Assembly: GCA_902779865.1 (NCBI GenBank)
Contig: CACZDG010000034.1
Location: 5,724 to 39,521 of the forward strand
DNA: 33,798 nt
From: an uncultured bacterium
Lineage (GTDB): Bacteria; Verrucomicrobiota; Kiritimatiellia; RFP12; UBA1067
Reading direction: 5' to 3'
Shown: positions 2,734 through 33,798 of the stretch, piece after piece
How the letters are laid out: each line of letters starts with the position of its first letter
Position numbering within the stretch: position 1 is the first letter of the stretch
Position numbers and translations under genes: made by a program
Notes under the pieces: model-generated
Told to the model about the DNA's origin: nothing
Database searches by the model: none
What the model saw: only the letters and a program-made list of their open reading frames with translations

Positions 2734-2808
2734 TGGCGGGCTCAGGGAGAATCGAACTCCCCTCTTCGGATCGACAGTCCGAGGTCCTAACCGATGAACG
2801 ATGAGCCC
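2734..2808 (-). tRNA. tRNA-Asp (GTC)
   Basis: A full cloverleaf folds on the minus strand. The acceptor GGGCTCA (2808-2802) pairs with TGAGCCC (2744-2738), the D stem is GTTC/GGAC, the anticodon stem is TCGGA/TCCGA around CTGTCGA (anticodon GTC), and the T stem is GGGAG/CTCCC with loop TTCGATT. The variable loop is 4 nt and the discriminator is G. CCA is encoded in the DNA (2736-2734). The mature length without CCA is 72 nt. Confidence 0.97.
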
Positions 2809-2897: not shown

Positions 2898-3141
2898 CTA
2901 CTCCACCACCACGACCTTCGGACAAACGAGCCTAAACGGCTTCGTTTCGAGCGTGTTCGCGCCGGGCTTGACGTAGTGGTTCACGGCGAGCATGCGCCCG
3001 TCGGCGGCGGAAAGAACGCGCGCACGGCGAGCGGAATTCCTCGCGCAGATCAGCCACGGCGGCGAATGGCAAAAGCACAGCGCCCATCACGGCAACTGCA
3101 TTGAATGCTCCTGTCATTTTCAGTTTCATATTTACCTTCAT
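2898..3141 (-). pseudogene. Secreted-protein remnant: signal peptide plus frameshifted tail
   Basis: The ORF starts with a clear signal peptide (M1 to about A31, ending PFAAVA) and then turns into arginine-rich sequence until a stop at 2932. In the neighbouring frame a natural-looking C-terminus reads on past that stop (AADGRMLAVNHYVKPG and then VCPKVVVVE) to TAG at 2898-2900. It therefore looks like an N-terminus and a C-terminus joined after loss of the middle, with a frameshift. It starts 5 bp after the stop of the gene at 3147, as the last member of the glycan cluster. The parent family is not recognisable. Confidence 0.5.
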
Positions 3142-3146
3142 TTCGC

Positions 3147-4724
3147 CTACTTCTCCGGGCGCGCACGGGCGCGGGCGCGGCGGGTAATCTCGTCCCAGGA
3201 GTCTTTCGTGCTCCAGAAGAGCTCGGACTGACAGAACGTCGCGAAGCTGTACGGCGGGTTGTATTCCGCCACGGCGCTGTACTCCTTCGGCTGGTGCTTG
3301 CCTTCGCGGACGTGCTTCACGAAGTCGTACGCAAACTTGCCGTTCTTGATCCAGTATTCGTCGATCTGCACGTGGCGCGGCAGCGTGAGCGCGCGGTCGC
3401 GCTCGATCAGCTGCTCACTGGCGCAGCCGAGCAGGAACGGACCCGCGAGCGGACGCCTGAAGTGGCTCCAGTCAATGCGCAGCTGCGCCTTCCAGCAGAA
3501 GCCGACGGTCGGCGTGAGCGCGAGGATCTTGTCGCAGTAGCTGATCATCTTCGGCGAGAGGCCCGTGTCGTGGAACGGAAACGCGCCGCAGTCCTCCCAG
3601 AGGATTTCCAGGGACGGATCGGTGCGCGCGATCGCCTCCGTAGCGCCCTTCTTGTGGATGGAGGAGGCGTGGAGTCCGAAGATGATGTCCGTATCCGGCG
3701 ACTCGTCGTGTATCTTCTTCGCCGTCTTGTTCACGAGCTCCGTCACGATGTCGGCGATGAGGCGCCCGCCCATCTCCTGCTGGCTCGTCTCGGTGAAGCT
3801 CTGGAAGTAGATGCCGTCGCCGCCCATCGGCTTCCAGATGCGCCGCCATTCGTCCACGATTGAGTCTGAGAGCGCGTCGAGCTTGCTGAGGTCGTTGAAT
3901 TCGATTCCCCAACCCCAGTGGAATCCCCAGTACACCTCGATGCCCCAGCTGTGGGCGCACTCGACGACCTGCTTCGCGTTCACGATCTGGCGGTCGTTCC
4001 AGATGATTGCGCGGTTGAAGCGGGCGCGGGCCATTTCGCGGAACGACGCGTTGTAGTCGTTGATGACGTGGCCCCACATCCAGGCGCTCCTCACCGGCGT
4101 CTCGGGCGCGGTGGCGTATTCGAAGGACGGAATCTTCTCGCTCCTAAAGAACGTGCCTGGGTAGCAGCAGTGGGCGTTCTTCAGCCGCGCCTCGAGGTCG
4201 GGAACGACCACGTCGAGGAAGTCGAACGTTCCCCAGAGGACGGCGGAGGGATTGTCGCCGGCGATGATGACGATGTTCCTTCCGTTCTTGTGCATCGTCT
4301 TGATTAGGTATCCGCCGGCGGGGACCTTCTTGTCGCCGAGGAGCGCCCGCAGCATCGCGTTCTTCTCCGGCACGCCGACCACGAACGCATCCCGCTTCGT
4401 ATCGACAATCTCGCCGCCGTCCTTCTCGAGCGGCAGCACGAACGGCGTCGCGAAGTGCGCCTCGCGCAGGAAATACGTCCCCGCGCGCTTTGTGAGCACT
4501 TCGAGGGCGCGCCCTTCCGGCCCCTCCGCCGACGAGTATATCACCTTCCACGTGCCGCCGCGCATCGTCTCTGGGAACTTCTCGCCCAAGGACGGCGCAA
4601 CCGTCGTGTCGAGCGAATGCGTGACCGTTTGCGAAACGGCATCCGCCTGCGCAGCCGCCAGTCCTGCGGCTGCGGAAATCACCACGGCCATCGCCGTCTT
4701 GAACTTCTTGTTTATCTGTGCCAT
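3147..4724 (-). CDS. Secreted glycoside hydrolase-like protein (GH20/GH67-type N-terminal domain)
   Basis: A 525-residue exported protein. The frame stays open to 4985, but the start at 4724 is preferred: it has AGGA upstream and opens a signal peptide (KKFKTAMAVVISAAAGLAAA). Residues of about 90-160 read like the small alpha/beta domain found before GH20 and GH67 barrels (GGYLIKTM, NIVIIAGDNPSAVLWGTFDFL in part). The rest has barrel-like strands such as EVYWGFHWGWGIEF, DGIYFQSFTETS and LEILWEDCGAFPF, consistent with a TIM barrel using carboxylates. The exact family and substrate are not certain. It lies 50 bp after the SUMF1 gene in the same direction and is probably cotranscribed with it. 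Confidence 0.6.
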   Translation of the reverse strand: MAQINKKFKTAMAVVISAAAGLAAAQADAVSQTVTHSLDTTVAPSLGEKFPETMRGGTWKVIYSSAEGPEGRALEVLTKRAGTYFLREAHFATPFVLPLEKDGGEIVDTKRDAFVVGVPEKNAMLRALLGDKKVPAGGYLIKTMHKNGRNIVIIAGDNPSAVLWGTFDFLDVVVPDLEARLKNAHCCYPGTFFRSEKIPSFEYATAPETPVRSAWMWGHVINDYNASFREMARARFNRAIIWNDRQIVNAKQVVECAHSWGIEVYWGFHWGWGIEFNDLSKLDALSDSIVDEWRRIWKPMGGDGIYFQSFTETSQQEMGGRLIADIVTELVNKTAKKIHDESPDTDIIFGLHASSIHKKGATEAIARTDPSLEILWEDCGAFPFHDTGLSPKMISYCDKILALTPTVGFCWKAQLRIDWSHFRRPLAGPFLLGCASEQLIERDRALTLPRHVQIDEYWIKNGKFAYDFVKHVREGKHQPKEYSAVAEYNPPYSFATFCQSELFWSTKDSWDEITRRARARARPEK

Positions 4725-22040: not shown

Positions 22041-22089
22041 TTTCGTTTTGTATTTTAGCATTTTTCTTTGTTTGCCGTCAAGTGGCTAT

Positions 22090-22161
22090 TTCCGGAATTT
22101 CGGGATTTTCCGGAGGTTCCGGATCTTCCGGATTTTCCGGAATTTCCGGAGGTTCCGGATC
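22090..22161. repeat. 9-bp minisatellite, eight units of TTCCGGANN
   Basis: Eight contiguous 9-bp units with consensus TTCCGGA plus two variable bases; one unit has TTCGGGA. The pair ending GG then TC occurs twice, suggesting duplication of a block. Read on the minus strand it gives SG-rich tripeptides, on the plus strand FPE/VPD; neither lies in a convincing gene. Confidence 0.85.
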
Positions 22162-26439: not shown

Positions 26440-26666
26440 GGGCGCATCTGCATAATTCACCGCCGAGCCTTCTGATGATTGAAAACAACTTGTTAGAAAC
26501 AACTTTCCTTTAGCGCACGGGCGCGGGGCCTTGCGGCTGCTTCGCAGTTCGCGCTTCGCGCTCACCCAACCTGATCGCTTCGCGACAGGCGCATCTACTC
26601 GCCCGCGCCCATTTGCTGGTTGTTTCCAAGTCCTAATACGAATGGGTGAAAAACGCAGATGCGCCC
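26440..26666. repeat. MITE-like palindromic element
   Basis: The ends are inverted copies: GGGCGCATCTGC...TTCACC (26440-26461) and GGTGAA...GCAGATGCGCCC (26645-26666). Nested inside are GAAACAAC/GTTGTTTC (26496-26503, 26619-26626) and GGGCGCGGG/CCCGCGCCC (26519-26527, 26602-26610). The core has three small hairpins, all with a TTC loop: CTGCTTCGCAG (26537), GCGCTTCGCGC (26551) and TCGCTTCGCGA (26575). TGGAGT occurs just outside both ends. It has no coding capacity and fills the gap between two genes. Confidence 0.65.
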
Positions 26667-26685
26667 GAGTGGAGTGCTATCTCGG

Positions 26686-30260: not shown

Positions 30261-30369
30261 ACCCCATCACAGATTTTCTCATCGGTAATTTTCCACTTGC
30301 CATCATAATGGCGATTTGATATGCTTTCCATGTTCCGCGAGGAATCGCAGAACATAGTTCTTTGACATA

Positions 30370-30489
30370 CCGGCGGTTGTGAGCCGCCGGATCGGTCGCC
30401 ACAACGGTAGAGTCACGCATCCGGCGTGATAAACTCCGGTGGAGAGCGACACAACAACTGCCGCGCACACGGGTGTGTGCCAACGGCAG
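30370..30489. repeat. Cluster of hairpins, first one repeated at 33671
   Basis: No gene is supported here. Hairpins seen: CCGGCGG/CCGCCGG (30370-30390), CTCC/GGAG (30434-30444), and a two-part stem CTGCCG/CGGCAG enclosing GCACAC/GTGTGC (30459-30489). The first hairpin with its 3' flank (30371-30405) recurs at 33671-33705 with 26 of 35 bases identical. Together with the large palindrome next to it this may be a structured RNA or a mobile-element end. Confidence 0.45.
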
Positions 30490-32885: not shown

Positions 32886-32903
32886 TTTGCTGTCATCATG
32901 ACC
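32886..32903. repeat. 18-bp repeat, copy 1 (TTTGCTGTCATCATGACC)
   Basis: This sequence recurs at 33718-33735 with a single C/T difference. Its core GTCATnATGAC is an odd palindrome, as in a protein-binding site. Copy 1 begins 4 bp after the VapC fragment ends. Confidence 0.6.
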
Positions 32904-32996
32904 TGCATTCACTCCCTGCCACCGAGGATCACGGGCAGATGACTACGACTGCATTCGACCATCCGCGTTTTTGCGCCCTTCTTGCCGCCCGACGAG

Positions 32997-33064
32997 TTAA
33001 CCTAAAAGCAGTTGAATAATCCCTTCTAATTTCTATTAGCCACAACTGCTGAATTTAGGGTTAA
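32997..33064. repeat. Inverted repeat at the 3' end of the ORF at 33036
   Basis: TTAACC, TAAA and AGCAGTTG (32997-33014) pair with CAACTGCT, TTTA and GGGTTAA (33043-33064) around a 28-nt AT-rich loop holding the stop codon of the minus-strand ORF. It could be a terminator without a clear U run or the end of a small mobile element. Confidence 0.5.
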
Positions 33065-33266
33065 TTGAGACGAACACATCGCGATATGAAGACCGGGCGT
33101 GCAGGGTTATGCCCTTGAACTCCTGTGGATACGGCACCACGATCCGCGTATCCGAATGTTCCTTTATGTTTTCGCGGAAAAACAATACCATTACCTCCTT
33201 CAAGTGCTCGTCGTGCGTCATCAACTTGCGGAACTTGCGCTTCTCGGGCTGTGTCTTGCTCGGCAC
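33036..33266 (-). CDS. Small hypothetical protein, possibly the 3' part of a broken gene
   Basis: A 76-residue ORF from a GTG with GAGG 5 nt upstream. It reads EKRKFRKLMTHDEHLKEVM, then SDTRIVVPYPQEFKGI and SYRDVFVSI, which looks like genuine protein of no recognised family. The same frame stays open upstream without an ATG, while a good ATG with AGGAG (33319) begins 53 bp earlier in another frame, downstream of a TATACT box at 33385-33380. A frameshifted gene starting at 33319 is therefore likely. Confidence 0.5.
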   Translation of the reverse strand: MPSKTQPEKRKFRKLMTHDEHLKEVMVLFFRENIKEHSDTRIVVPYPQEFKGITLHARSSYRDVFVSINPKFSSCG

Positions 33267-33378
33267 CTTGACCTCGCTAAGCTTGAACGAGGGCGCACAT
33301 TGACTTTCTGTATGGACATAACCGTTTTTCTCCTATATGGGAACCGCCTCTCAAGAGGATGGGTCGTCTTGACGCAAG

Positions 33379-33564
33379 GGAGTATAACACAACTACCCAT
33401 GGAGTATAATAGAATAATGTGGCATATTAATAAACATAATGTGGCACATTATTTATATTATTATGGCACAATATATATCTTAATGTGGTACATTAATATA
33501 TATAATATGCCACAATATATAATATATTGTGCCACATTAATACAAACAATGTGCCATATTAACT
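33379..33564. repeat. Array of 22-bp iterons with odd palindromes
   Basis: Seven copies of a 13-bp odd palindrome, consensus AATGTG-(G/C)-CACATT, have centres at 33422, 33444, 33466, 33488, 33510, 33532 and 33554, exactly 22 bp apart. The centre base is G in copies 1-4 and C in copies 5-7. Between copies lies only AT sequence. GGAGTATAA also occurs twice at the same period (33379 and 33401), giving two TTATACTCC boxes on the minus strand that point at the ORF ending at 33036. No gene overlaps the array. Confidence 0.9.
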
Positions 33565-33670
33565 TATTTTCCTCCCACAGGCACATTGACACCCACCCTT
33601 ACCAGGAAACAGCGTCACATGCCACGTGACGTTGGGGATATAACACCCATACATGGTCTATCCTAGCCTA

Positions 33671-33705
33671 CGGCGGTTACGAACTGCCGAGCCGGTCGTC
33701 ACATC
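33671..33705. repeat. Diverged copy of the 30371 hairpin element
   Basis: Gap-free alignment to 30371-30405 gives 26 identities in 35; eight of the nine differences are transitions. The stem CGGCGG/CTGCCG is kept, using one G-U pair. Confidence 0.55.
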
Positions 33706-33717
33706 CTACCGATGTCG

Positions 33718-33735
33718 TTTGCTGTCATTATGACC
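33718..33735. repeat. 18-bp repeat, copy 2 (TTTGCTGTCATTATGACC)
   Basis: Second copy of the sequence at 32886, in the same orientation, so the pair brackets the small hypothetical gene and the 22-bp array. Confidence 0.6.
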
Positions 33736-33755
33736 ATAGTTTCAATCAAATTAGT

Positions 33756-33786
33756 ACGACAGCGGCTACGCCGGATATGGTATAAT
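33756..33786 (+). promoter_or_regulatory. Promoter reading out of the window
   Basis: A perfect TATAAT (33781-33786) with ACGACA 19 bp upstream as a possible -35 box. Only 12 bases follow, so the gene it serves is not visible. Confidence 0.45.
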
Positions 33787-33798
33787 TGTAGGCGAAAC

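Follow-up and report, generated by a model that had tools for sequence, protein, structure and literature searches.

Palindromic arrays with a 22-bp period upstream of HU-like genes in uncultured Kiritimatiellia: probable private operators of the adjoining proteins

We describe an array of seven palindromic boxes, exactly 22 bp apart, found in a stretch of 33,798 nucleotides from an uncultured bacterium of the Kiritimatiellia; this whole stretch will be called the window. In uncultured bacteria of the gut, regular arrays of this kind are placed upstream of many genes which code for HU-like, DNA-bending proteins, mostly with one motif for each module of gene and array, and there are also copies without a gene. 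We think it probable that the array is a private operator of the adjoining protein of the HU/IHF superfamily. Gene and array would form a dispersed module, of which the window holds a decayed copy.

Structure of the array in the window

The window belongs to contig C34 of a 4.3-Mb genome in 272 contigs; the end of the window is the end of the contig. Its array, which we call fam1, has seven odd near-palindromes of 13 bp (Table 1), defined by at most three mismatches to AATGTGSCACATT: one of them is perfect and the others have 1–3 mismatches. Every step from start to start is 22 bp, so the spacers have 9 bp. This regularity had been claimed in a sequence-only reading of the window and it is confirmed: in positions 33376–33575 the longest run in register has seven boxes. 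None of 2000 shuffles that preserve dinucleotides goes beyond two, and the highest period score among them is 24.0, against 57.3 in the real sequence. Tandem Repeats Finder also calls a period of 22. Over the whole window there are 10 matches to AATGTGSCACATT with up to three mismatches, when 4.7 are expected by chance: it is the register which is remarkable, not the number of matches. The same reading correctly noted that the central base changes from G in boxes 1–4 to C in boxes 5–7. This order is common to all five fam1 copies of the genome, except for one centre mutation in the copy on contig C57, and in other arrays the centre flips at other positions or never. The order is therefore inherited and does not follow a rule. 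CRISPR repeats, which are identical and have unrelated spacers of 26–40 bp, are a different kind of array: here the spacers have 9 bp and the boxes are imperfect.

Two GGAGTATAA boxes next to the array had been considered part of the same period and -10 elements of the minus strand. They are indeed 22 bp apart (starts 33379 and 33401), but the distance from the second one to the first palindrome is 15 bp: they share the spacing of the palindromes and not their phase. One of them does give a promoter-like match, but there are 2 such matches where shuffled sequence leads one to expect 2.5, which is not above chance.

An Rfam scan of the window has a single match, a tRNA gene (2737–2808, minus strand). 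There is also a 9-bp tandem repeat TTTCCGGAT with 8 copies in positions 22089–22160. Two stretches, 26440–26671 and 30287–30489, recur on contig C191 (L007:50-362 and 2964-3167, with 87–89% identity), so that the window contains further dispersed repeats besides the array unit. An identical stretch of 62 bp is found at window 33737–33798, L003:1-62 and L007:4482-4543, two of them at contig ends: it is probably a repeat which breaks the assembly.

Table 1 Array, gene remnants and neighbouring features, with positions in the window
Feature	Position	Strand	Evidence
TTTGCTGTCATCATGACC, one of two near-identical 18-bp direct repeats bracketing the unit in the window copy	32886..32903	+	
3' remnant of HU-like gene, about residues 231–261, one internal stop	32912..33004	-	
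59-bp insertion in gene remnant, inverted ends CCTAAA..TTTAGG, between GTTAA 32996–33000 and 33060–33064	33001..33059	.	
Further remnant of HU-like gene, about residues 178–236	33051..33227	-	
5' remnant of HU-like gene: start codon 33319–33317, then about residues 6–34	33213..33319	-	
Second GGAGTATAA box, 22 bp nearer the gene; the aligned stretch of C57 likewise reads GGAGTATAA	33379..33387	-	
GGAGTATAA box (TTATACTCC on minus strand)	33401..33409	-	
Promoter-like match TTAATA, 16 nt, TATACT; -35 hexamer overlaps box 1	33403..33430	-	not above shuffles
fam1 array of seven boxes	33416..33560	.	box scan, shuffles, Tandem Repeats Finder
Box 1 AATGTGGCATATT	33416..33428	.	box scan
Box 2 AATGTGGCACATT, perfect	33438..33450	.	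box scan
Box 3 ATTATGGCACAAT	33460..33472	.	box scan
Box 4 AATGTGGTACATT	33482..33494	.	box scan
Box 5 AATATGCCACAAT	33504..33516	.	box scan
Box 6 ATTGTGCCACATT	33526..33538	.	box scan
Box 7 AATGTGCCATATT	33548..33560	.	box scan
Outer flank kept in C16, C191 and C21 (partly C57); contains short inverted repeat CGGCGGTT..AACTGCCG	33561..33705	.	
TTTGCTGTCATTATGACC, the other 18-bp direct repeat bracketing the window unit	33718..33735	+	

The HU-like gene and the copies of the array in the genome

The fam1 array has five copies in this genome (contigs C16, C21, C34, C57 and C191), each with seven units at exactly 22 bp. Only in C57 is the gene intact: there the array precedes L006:4827-5618, which codes for a protein of the HU superfamily with 263 aa. 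This protein matches HU-DNA_bdg (PF14848) with 30.8 bits, for a curated cut-off of 30 (E 3.4e-7), and PF14848 is matched at E <= 0.01 by 18 of 20 aligned members of its clade. A profile built from clade members has a weak match in the PDB, chain 4fmr_A (E 0.004). A C-terminal DUF4469 is above cut-off in two of the eight proteins scanned (G103:C81 and G000:C103), below threshold in C48 and absent in C57. None of the 20 clade members has a match in PHROGs or PADLOC; NCBIfam gives one weak, irrelevant match in one of the 20. In public genomes, four named relatives of the C57 protein are found, in the uncultured bacterium RUG12612, in two entries named uncultured Verrucomicrobia bacterium and in a Kiritimatiellae bacterium from yak reticulum.

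In the other four copies the gene is broken or deleted. The window has only pieces of it, about residues 6–34, 178–236 and 231–261 of the C57 query, and the middle is missing. The 59-bp insertion in these remnants resembles a very small MITE that duplicated a target of 5 bp, since C57 has a single GTTAA at the site where the window has two. The array, the outer flank and the 3' end of the gene are kept in C16, C34 and C191. All three lack the central part of the gene, and in C16 and C191 most of the gene is gone. In C21 the array and the outer flank are kept. The short contig of the C191 copy also has a gene for an EcoRI-type adenine methyltransferase (L007:3410-4465; PF13651, E 7e-146). On the contig of the C16 copy, L003:3469-6000 has long internal tandem repeats, visible as dense self-matches at shifts that are multiples of about 69 bp. 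Outside the arrays, matches to TGTGSCAYATTA are found in a single place of the genome, on C145. A DNA-level search of 40 related genomes did not find the fam1 array.

Two other families of arrays are dispersed in the same genome. In fam2 the exact sequence ATCTAYCGRTAGAT occurs 23 times, always in one of four 22-bp arrays (C8, C71, C95 and C135), and C135 is the only one with an intact gene. The C8 copy has five units instead of seven, and the loss is in register. In fam3 the matches to CAARTAGKRCTAYTTG, with at most one mismatch allowed, are grouped into seven arrays (C8, C20, C62, C67, C76, C77 and C157), with a core conserved for about 60–90 bp on either side of the array. The assembly, with a completeness of about 92%, yielded no gene of the clade which matches fam3. 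The sequence-only reading had taken irregular spacing and the lack of a linked gene as the marks of a neutral satellite: most copies in this genome do lack a linked gene, but their spacing is regular.

Boxes and spacers do not vary in the same way in the three families. In fam2 there are 2 variable columns out of 98 in boxes versus 16 out of 48 in spacers (p 2e-7), as counted in three of the four copies: C8 was left out because it has lost two units. In fam3 the values are 14 out of 64 versus 11 out of 18 (p 0.003, seven copies), with p = 0.02 after dropping the most diverged copy. In fam1 the boxes have no such advantage over the spacers (22 of 91 versus 15 of 54 columns, p 0.69). The fam2 spacers are specific for each unit and common to the copies, so that a recent copying of units does not explain why the boxes are alike. 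Near flanks have hardly any indels either: their scarcity in the arrays is thus nothing special. Given that boxes are conserved in fam2 and fam3 but not in fam1, the best reading of the array of the window is that it belongs to a functional kind but is itself in decay.

Association of the arrays with HU-like genes

We looked upstream of five other HU-like genes of this genome and of one in a relative. Regular palindrome arrays with different motifs are present in five of the six, the exception being C45. A search with PF14848 gave matches in 38 of 115 genomes of the taxonomic family and in 18 of 387 of the phylum, and the stretches around the hits of the family were fetched for the analysis of arrays. 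The 107 gene hits include a few found by the C57 protein and not by PF14848, two of which are from another family of the order. After removal of 10 hits without a fetched locus and 4 with less than 120 bp upstream, there are 93 upstream regions, nearly all of them from one taxonomic family.

A significant period in the range 14–40 bp is found in 61 of these 93 regions. It is 21–24 bp in 56 of them (22 bp in 39, 23 bp in 9, 21 bp in 5 and 24 bp in 3) and takes any other value in just 5. No significant 21–24-bp period is present in 37 of the 93, which include whole PF14848 subfamilies. Clearly palindromic arrays are found in 46 of the 56, from 23 genomes, and 39 of the 46 have 4 to 8 units. This palindromic set was obtained from 59 arrays with periods 21–24. 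Eleven were removed by hand because of low complexity, masking, short length or the lack of a clear palindrome (G101:C39, G143:C118, G139:C51, G010:C108, G007:C194, G013:C218, G100:C121, G140:C35, G058:C1:13133, G142:C9:28646 and G051:C207), and two did not have enough boxes to derive a motif (G002:C234 and G002:C382). Ten of the 13 removed arrays are still counted in the 56, whose test concerns the period alone.

The 46 arrays form about 32 motif clusters at similarity 0.2. Examples are GGTCWGACC (C48), ATCTACCGATAGAT (C135), TCTCCATTGGATGGAGA (C103), AACCGTGCCCACGGTT (G002) and TTTCTACCTGTAGAA (G103). The clade which holds the window gene (support 81, in a tree of 95 proteins rooted at midpoint) has a 21–24-bp period in all of its 29 rows, 25 of them in the palindromic set. 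The search for a 22-bp-spaced motif linked to one gene family, which had been proposed for the window, is positive: the linked family is constant and it is the motif which varies.

A -10-like hexamer, by a crude consensus match, is found in 43 of the 46 arrays, often near one edge of the array, either downstream or upstream. The distance from the end of the array to the guessed gene start goes from 21 bp inside the gene to 173 bp before it, with a median of 69 (43 arrays). By their position, judged with crude promoter matches, the arrays thus lie where the operators of an autoregulator would be, at the promoter of its gene. The suggestion of a switch with multiple operators is supported in outline, by the place of the array at the promoter end of HU-like genes and by the period in 56 of 93 upstream regions.

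As a control we used 16 further PF14848 hits, 14 of them outside the species group of the window (order or phylum), mostly with far better scores (E down to 1e-23). Two of the 16 were dropped for too little upstream sequence. A significant 21–24-bp period is present in 3 of the 14 remaining regions (L135, L145 and L148), and palindromes are seen by eye only in L148. As far as sampled, the arrays are therefore a feature of the taxonomic family of the window and not of PF14848 at large. A sliding scan of 1065 stretches of 600 bp, from the window and 25 fetched loci, gave 28 places with a score of at least 25: 26 are such arrays, of which 19 precede HU-like genes and 7 have no intact gene, and 2 are others. 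It shows specificity and not prevalence, since the loci were picked for having such genes or arrays.

The surroundings of the modules are diverse. We compared 20 contexts by crude ORF calling and blastp and found few shared neighbours; no widely recurrent operon partner appeared. The gene which follows the HU-like gene in L174 and L175 has a relative in L161, far from a HU-like gene; by Pfam the L174 and L161 members are AraC-type regulators with a periplasmic-binding domain. Near the G021:C47 module, gene L169:3653-6115 matches the PF05925 profile (IpgD, a family name only) with E 7.6e-64. Some genomes have tandem pairs of different HU-like subfamilies (for example at L060, L061, L063 and L127); among those examined, no palindromic array goes with the longer partner. 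The search for viral carriers gave 56 pattern matches, none of them confirmed.

Relation between motif and protein

The motif follows the protein at close range. For the 52 protein pairs at a tree distance below 1.5 the mean motif similarity is 0.161, as compared with 0.045 expected by permutation; 0 of 5000 permutations reach the observed mean. The same result (0 of 5000) is obtained with the 40 pairs at distance 0.6–1.5, when closer pairs are excluded. Little similarity is left beyond a distance of about 2. Over all distances the correlation of motif and protein is not significant in a Mantel test (Spearman -0.053, 184 of 2000 permutations as low). This is expected if similarity saturates, although it is weaker than hoped. 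Array motif and HU-like protein are linked and diverge together at close range. Within a genome, only 3 of 49 module pairs reach a motif similarity of 0.2. The nearest relatives of the window gene have GTC-W-GAC sites, and the window family has GTG-S-CAC in a similar frame. A search for residues which determine specificity gave a best column difference of 0.090 for a 95% permutation bound of 0.080, which is marginal and which we do not trust.

Origin and function of the arrays

An autoregulatory operator, filled in a cooperative way, is the simplest reading of an array placed beside the gene start, with -10-like hexamers and next to a gene with an HU-type domain. Each HU-like dimer would bind one palindromic box. 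Boxes 21–23 bp apart are two helical turns from each other, so that successive dimers would lie on one face of the DNA. Their cooperative assembly may bend or coat about 90–260 bp at the promoter of the gene, with repression of this same gene as the simplest consequence. Paralogous modules would drift to new motifs along with their protein and would thus become independent of each other; copies which lost the gene would leave orphan arrays.

The dispersion of the arrays could have another meaning: they might be mobility sites, the ends or platforms of non-autonomous MITE-like elements, with the HU-like protein as an architectural helper for an enzyme supplied elsewhere and autoregulation as a secondary feature. 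The sequence-only reading had also seen signs of mobility, which are supported in part by the five copies in the genome, four of them with a broken or deleted gene. The three motifs have 5, 4 and 7 dispersed arrays; fam1 and fam2 resemble MITEs in having short gene-less copies related to a fuller one, with a single intact gene each. The loss of the gene middle between a kept array and a kept 3' end (C16, C34 and C191) and the conserved core around the fam3 arrays agree with this. However, no terminal inverted repeats or target-site duplications were recognised when the unit ends were inspected by eye; one copy is flanked by the 18-bp direct repeats. Furthermore, no transposase or integrase is found among ten nearby genes scanned with Pfam, few neighbours are shared among the 20 contexts, and plain decay after duplication could also yield gene-less copies. 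We consider this reading rather unlikely as the main explanation. A neutral minisatellite, with tandem repeats which slip and decay and stay near the gene family only by descent, would agree with the similar variation of boxes and spacers in fam1 and with the in-register loss in the C8 copy of fam2. On the other hand, unrelated sequences in front of one and the same gene family keep a period of 21–23 bp, in fam2 and fam3 the spacers vary more than the boxes, the unit-specific spacers of fam2 are shared between copies, and the motif tracks protein divergence at close range. We find it very unlikely. As a general reading we reject a neutral satellite because of the linkage with one gene family, the close-range co-divergence and the box conservation in two families.

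Arrays of sites about two turns apart which serve as operator of the neighbouring gene are also known in plasmids: parC/ParR, omega-type partition loci and iterons are helically phased in this way. Partition sites and iteron origins had been among the suggestions for the window; in such a reading the array would be the centromere or origin of an integrated plasmid and the HU-like protein its adaptor or initiator. Those loci use a different protein fold, and here there are many arrays per genome, on different contigs. No motor NTPase or Rep gene is found among the ten nearby genes scanned with Pfam, and a search of 72,556 plasmid records (E 0.01) gives no relative of the protein of the window family. 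On these results the proposal is not supported, and we give it very little chance. Even less probable is that the array acts as RNA, through hairpins or processed repeats. Some modules do have a -10-like hexamer immediately before the array, which could then be transcribed. But the window has no Rfam match besides the tRNA gene, in several arrays the centre switches strand from one unit to another, as suits dyad sites in DNA, and an exact period of two turns has no obvious meaning for RNA.

Going beyond the private operator, the modules might be a self-diversifying form of chromatin. HU-like protein and array would co-evolve their specificities, so that each genome would have several assemblies blind to each other. 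Each protein would coat its own and the orphan arrays in trans and shut or cluster these loci; the unit that spreads, as a non-autonomous element, would be the array. On this view BrickBuilt and similar minisatellite elements of Bacteroidota are such arrays, seen without their protein. We put this forward as a tentative idea, which has a minor chance of being correct as a whole.

Comparison with known systems

The proteins next to the arrays belong by profile with PF14848 HU-DNA_bdg plus DUF4469 proteins and with the HU-HIG clade (PF18291). Burroughs et al. reportedly described in 2017 a rapid lineage-specific expansion of HU-HIG proteins in Bacteroidetes. Sequence-preferring members of the HU superfamily are known, such as IHF and TF1 of phage SPO1, which bend DNA. 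They have single sites and are not known to have a private motif for each paralog, as opposed to the strict 22-bp arrays found here. When PF14848, PF14734, DUF4469 and HU-DNA_bdg are searched for as whole words in 5.39 million papers, a paper on TrtA of Treponema denticola is the only result. It has TDE_2259, a PF14848/PF14734 protein, among the genes changed in the mutant, and the part of it used here gives no DNA site.

The closest precedent which we have found is the BrickBuilt MITE of Porphyromonas gingivalis, which has intergenic tandem arrays of 23 nt, with 19 copies in one strain, a conserved leader and tail, and promoter activity in some copies (PMC4596501). One of them, BrickBuilt_14, adjoins PGN_0872, listed as a PF00216 DNA-binding protein; in the portions of the report considered here its authors do not tie the element to a DNA-binding protein, whereas in our case a HU-like gene is linked (PMC4596501). 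Both are dispersed tandem arrays with a similar repeat, 23 nt versus about 22 bp, but BrickBuilt has one motif in direct repeats without spacers, as far as described there, and our arrays have palindromic boxes within variable spacers. PF00216 is the Pfam family of HU; one BrickBuilt array beside a HU-type gene and many without it would fit the pattern of our arrays. In the same species the HU protein PG0121 has been studied with a nearby inverted repeat of 77 bp at the capsule locus (PMC3969353). From what this source describes, the likeness lies in an HU-type protein together with an inverted-repeat region; it is a single long inverted repeat, as opposed to a phased array of short palindromes (PMC3969353). 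Apart from this work, we found nothing on point in the literature on HU proteins together with 22-bp arrays or repeated palindromes. Private phased arrays for HU-like paralogs thus appear to be undescribed in the literature searched, which excludes subscription papers and preprints.

Most work on proteins of the HU superfamily treats them as having little preference for sequence when they bind. In our data dozens of HU-like paralogs each appear beside a predicted target, most of them with a target of their own. They also offer a candidate protein partner for the MITEs with minisatellites which have been reported without one. The 46 pairs of motif and protein are open to bench tests of what proteins of the PF14848/HU-HIG type recognise, and of how an HU-like fold gains a sharp specificity.
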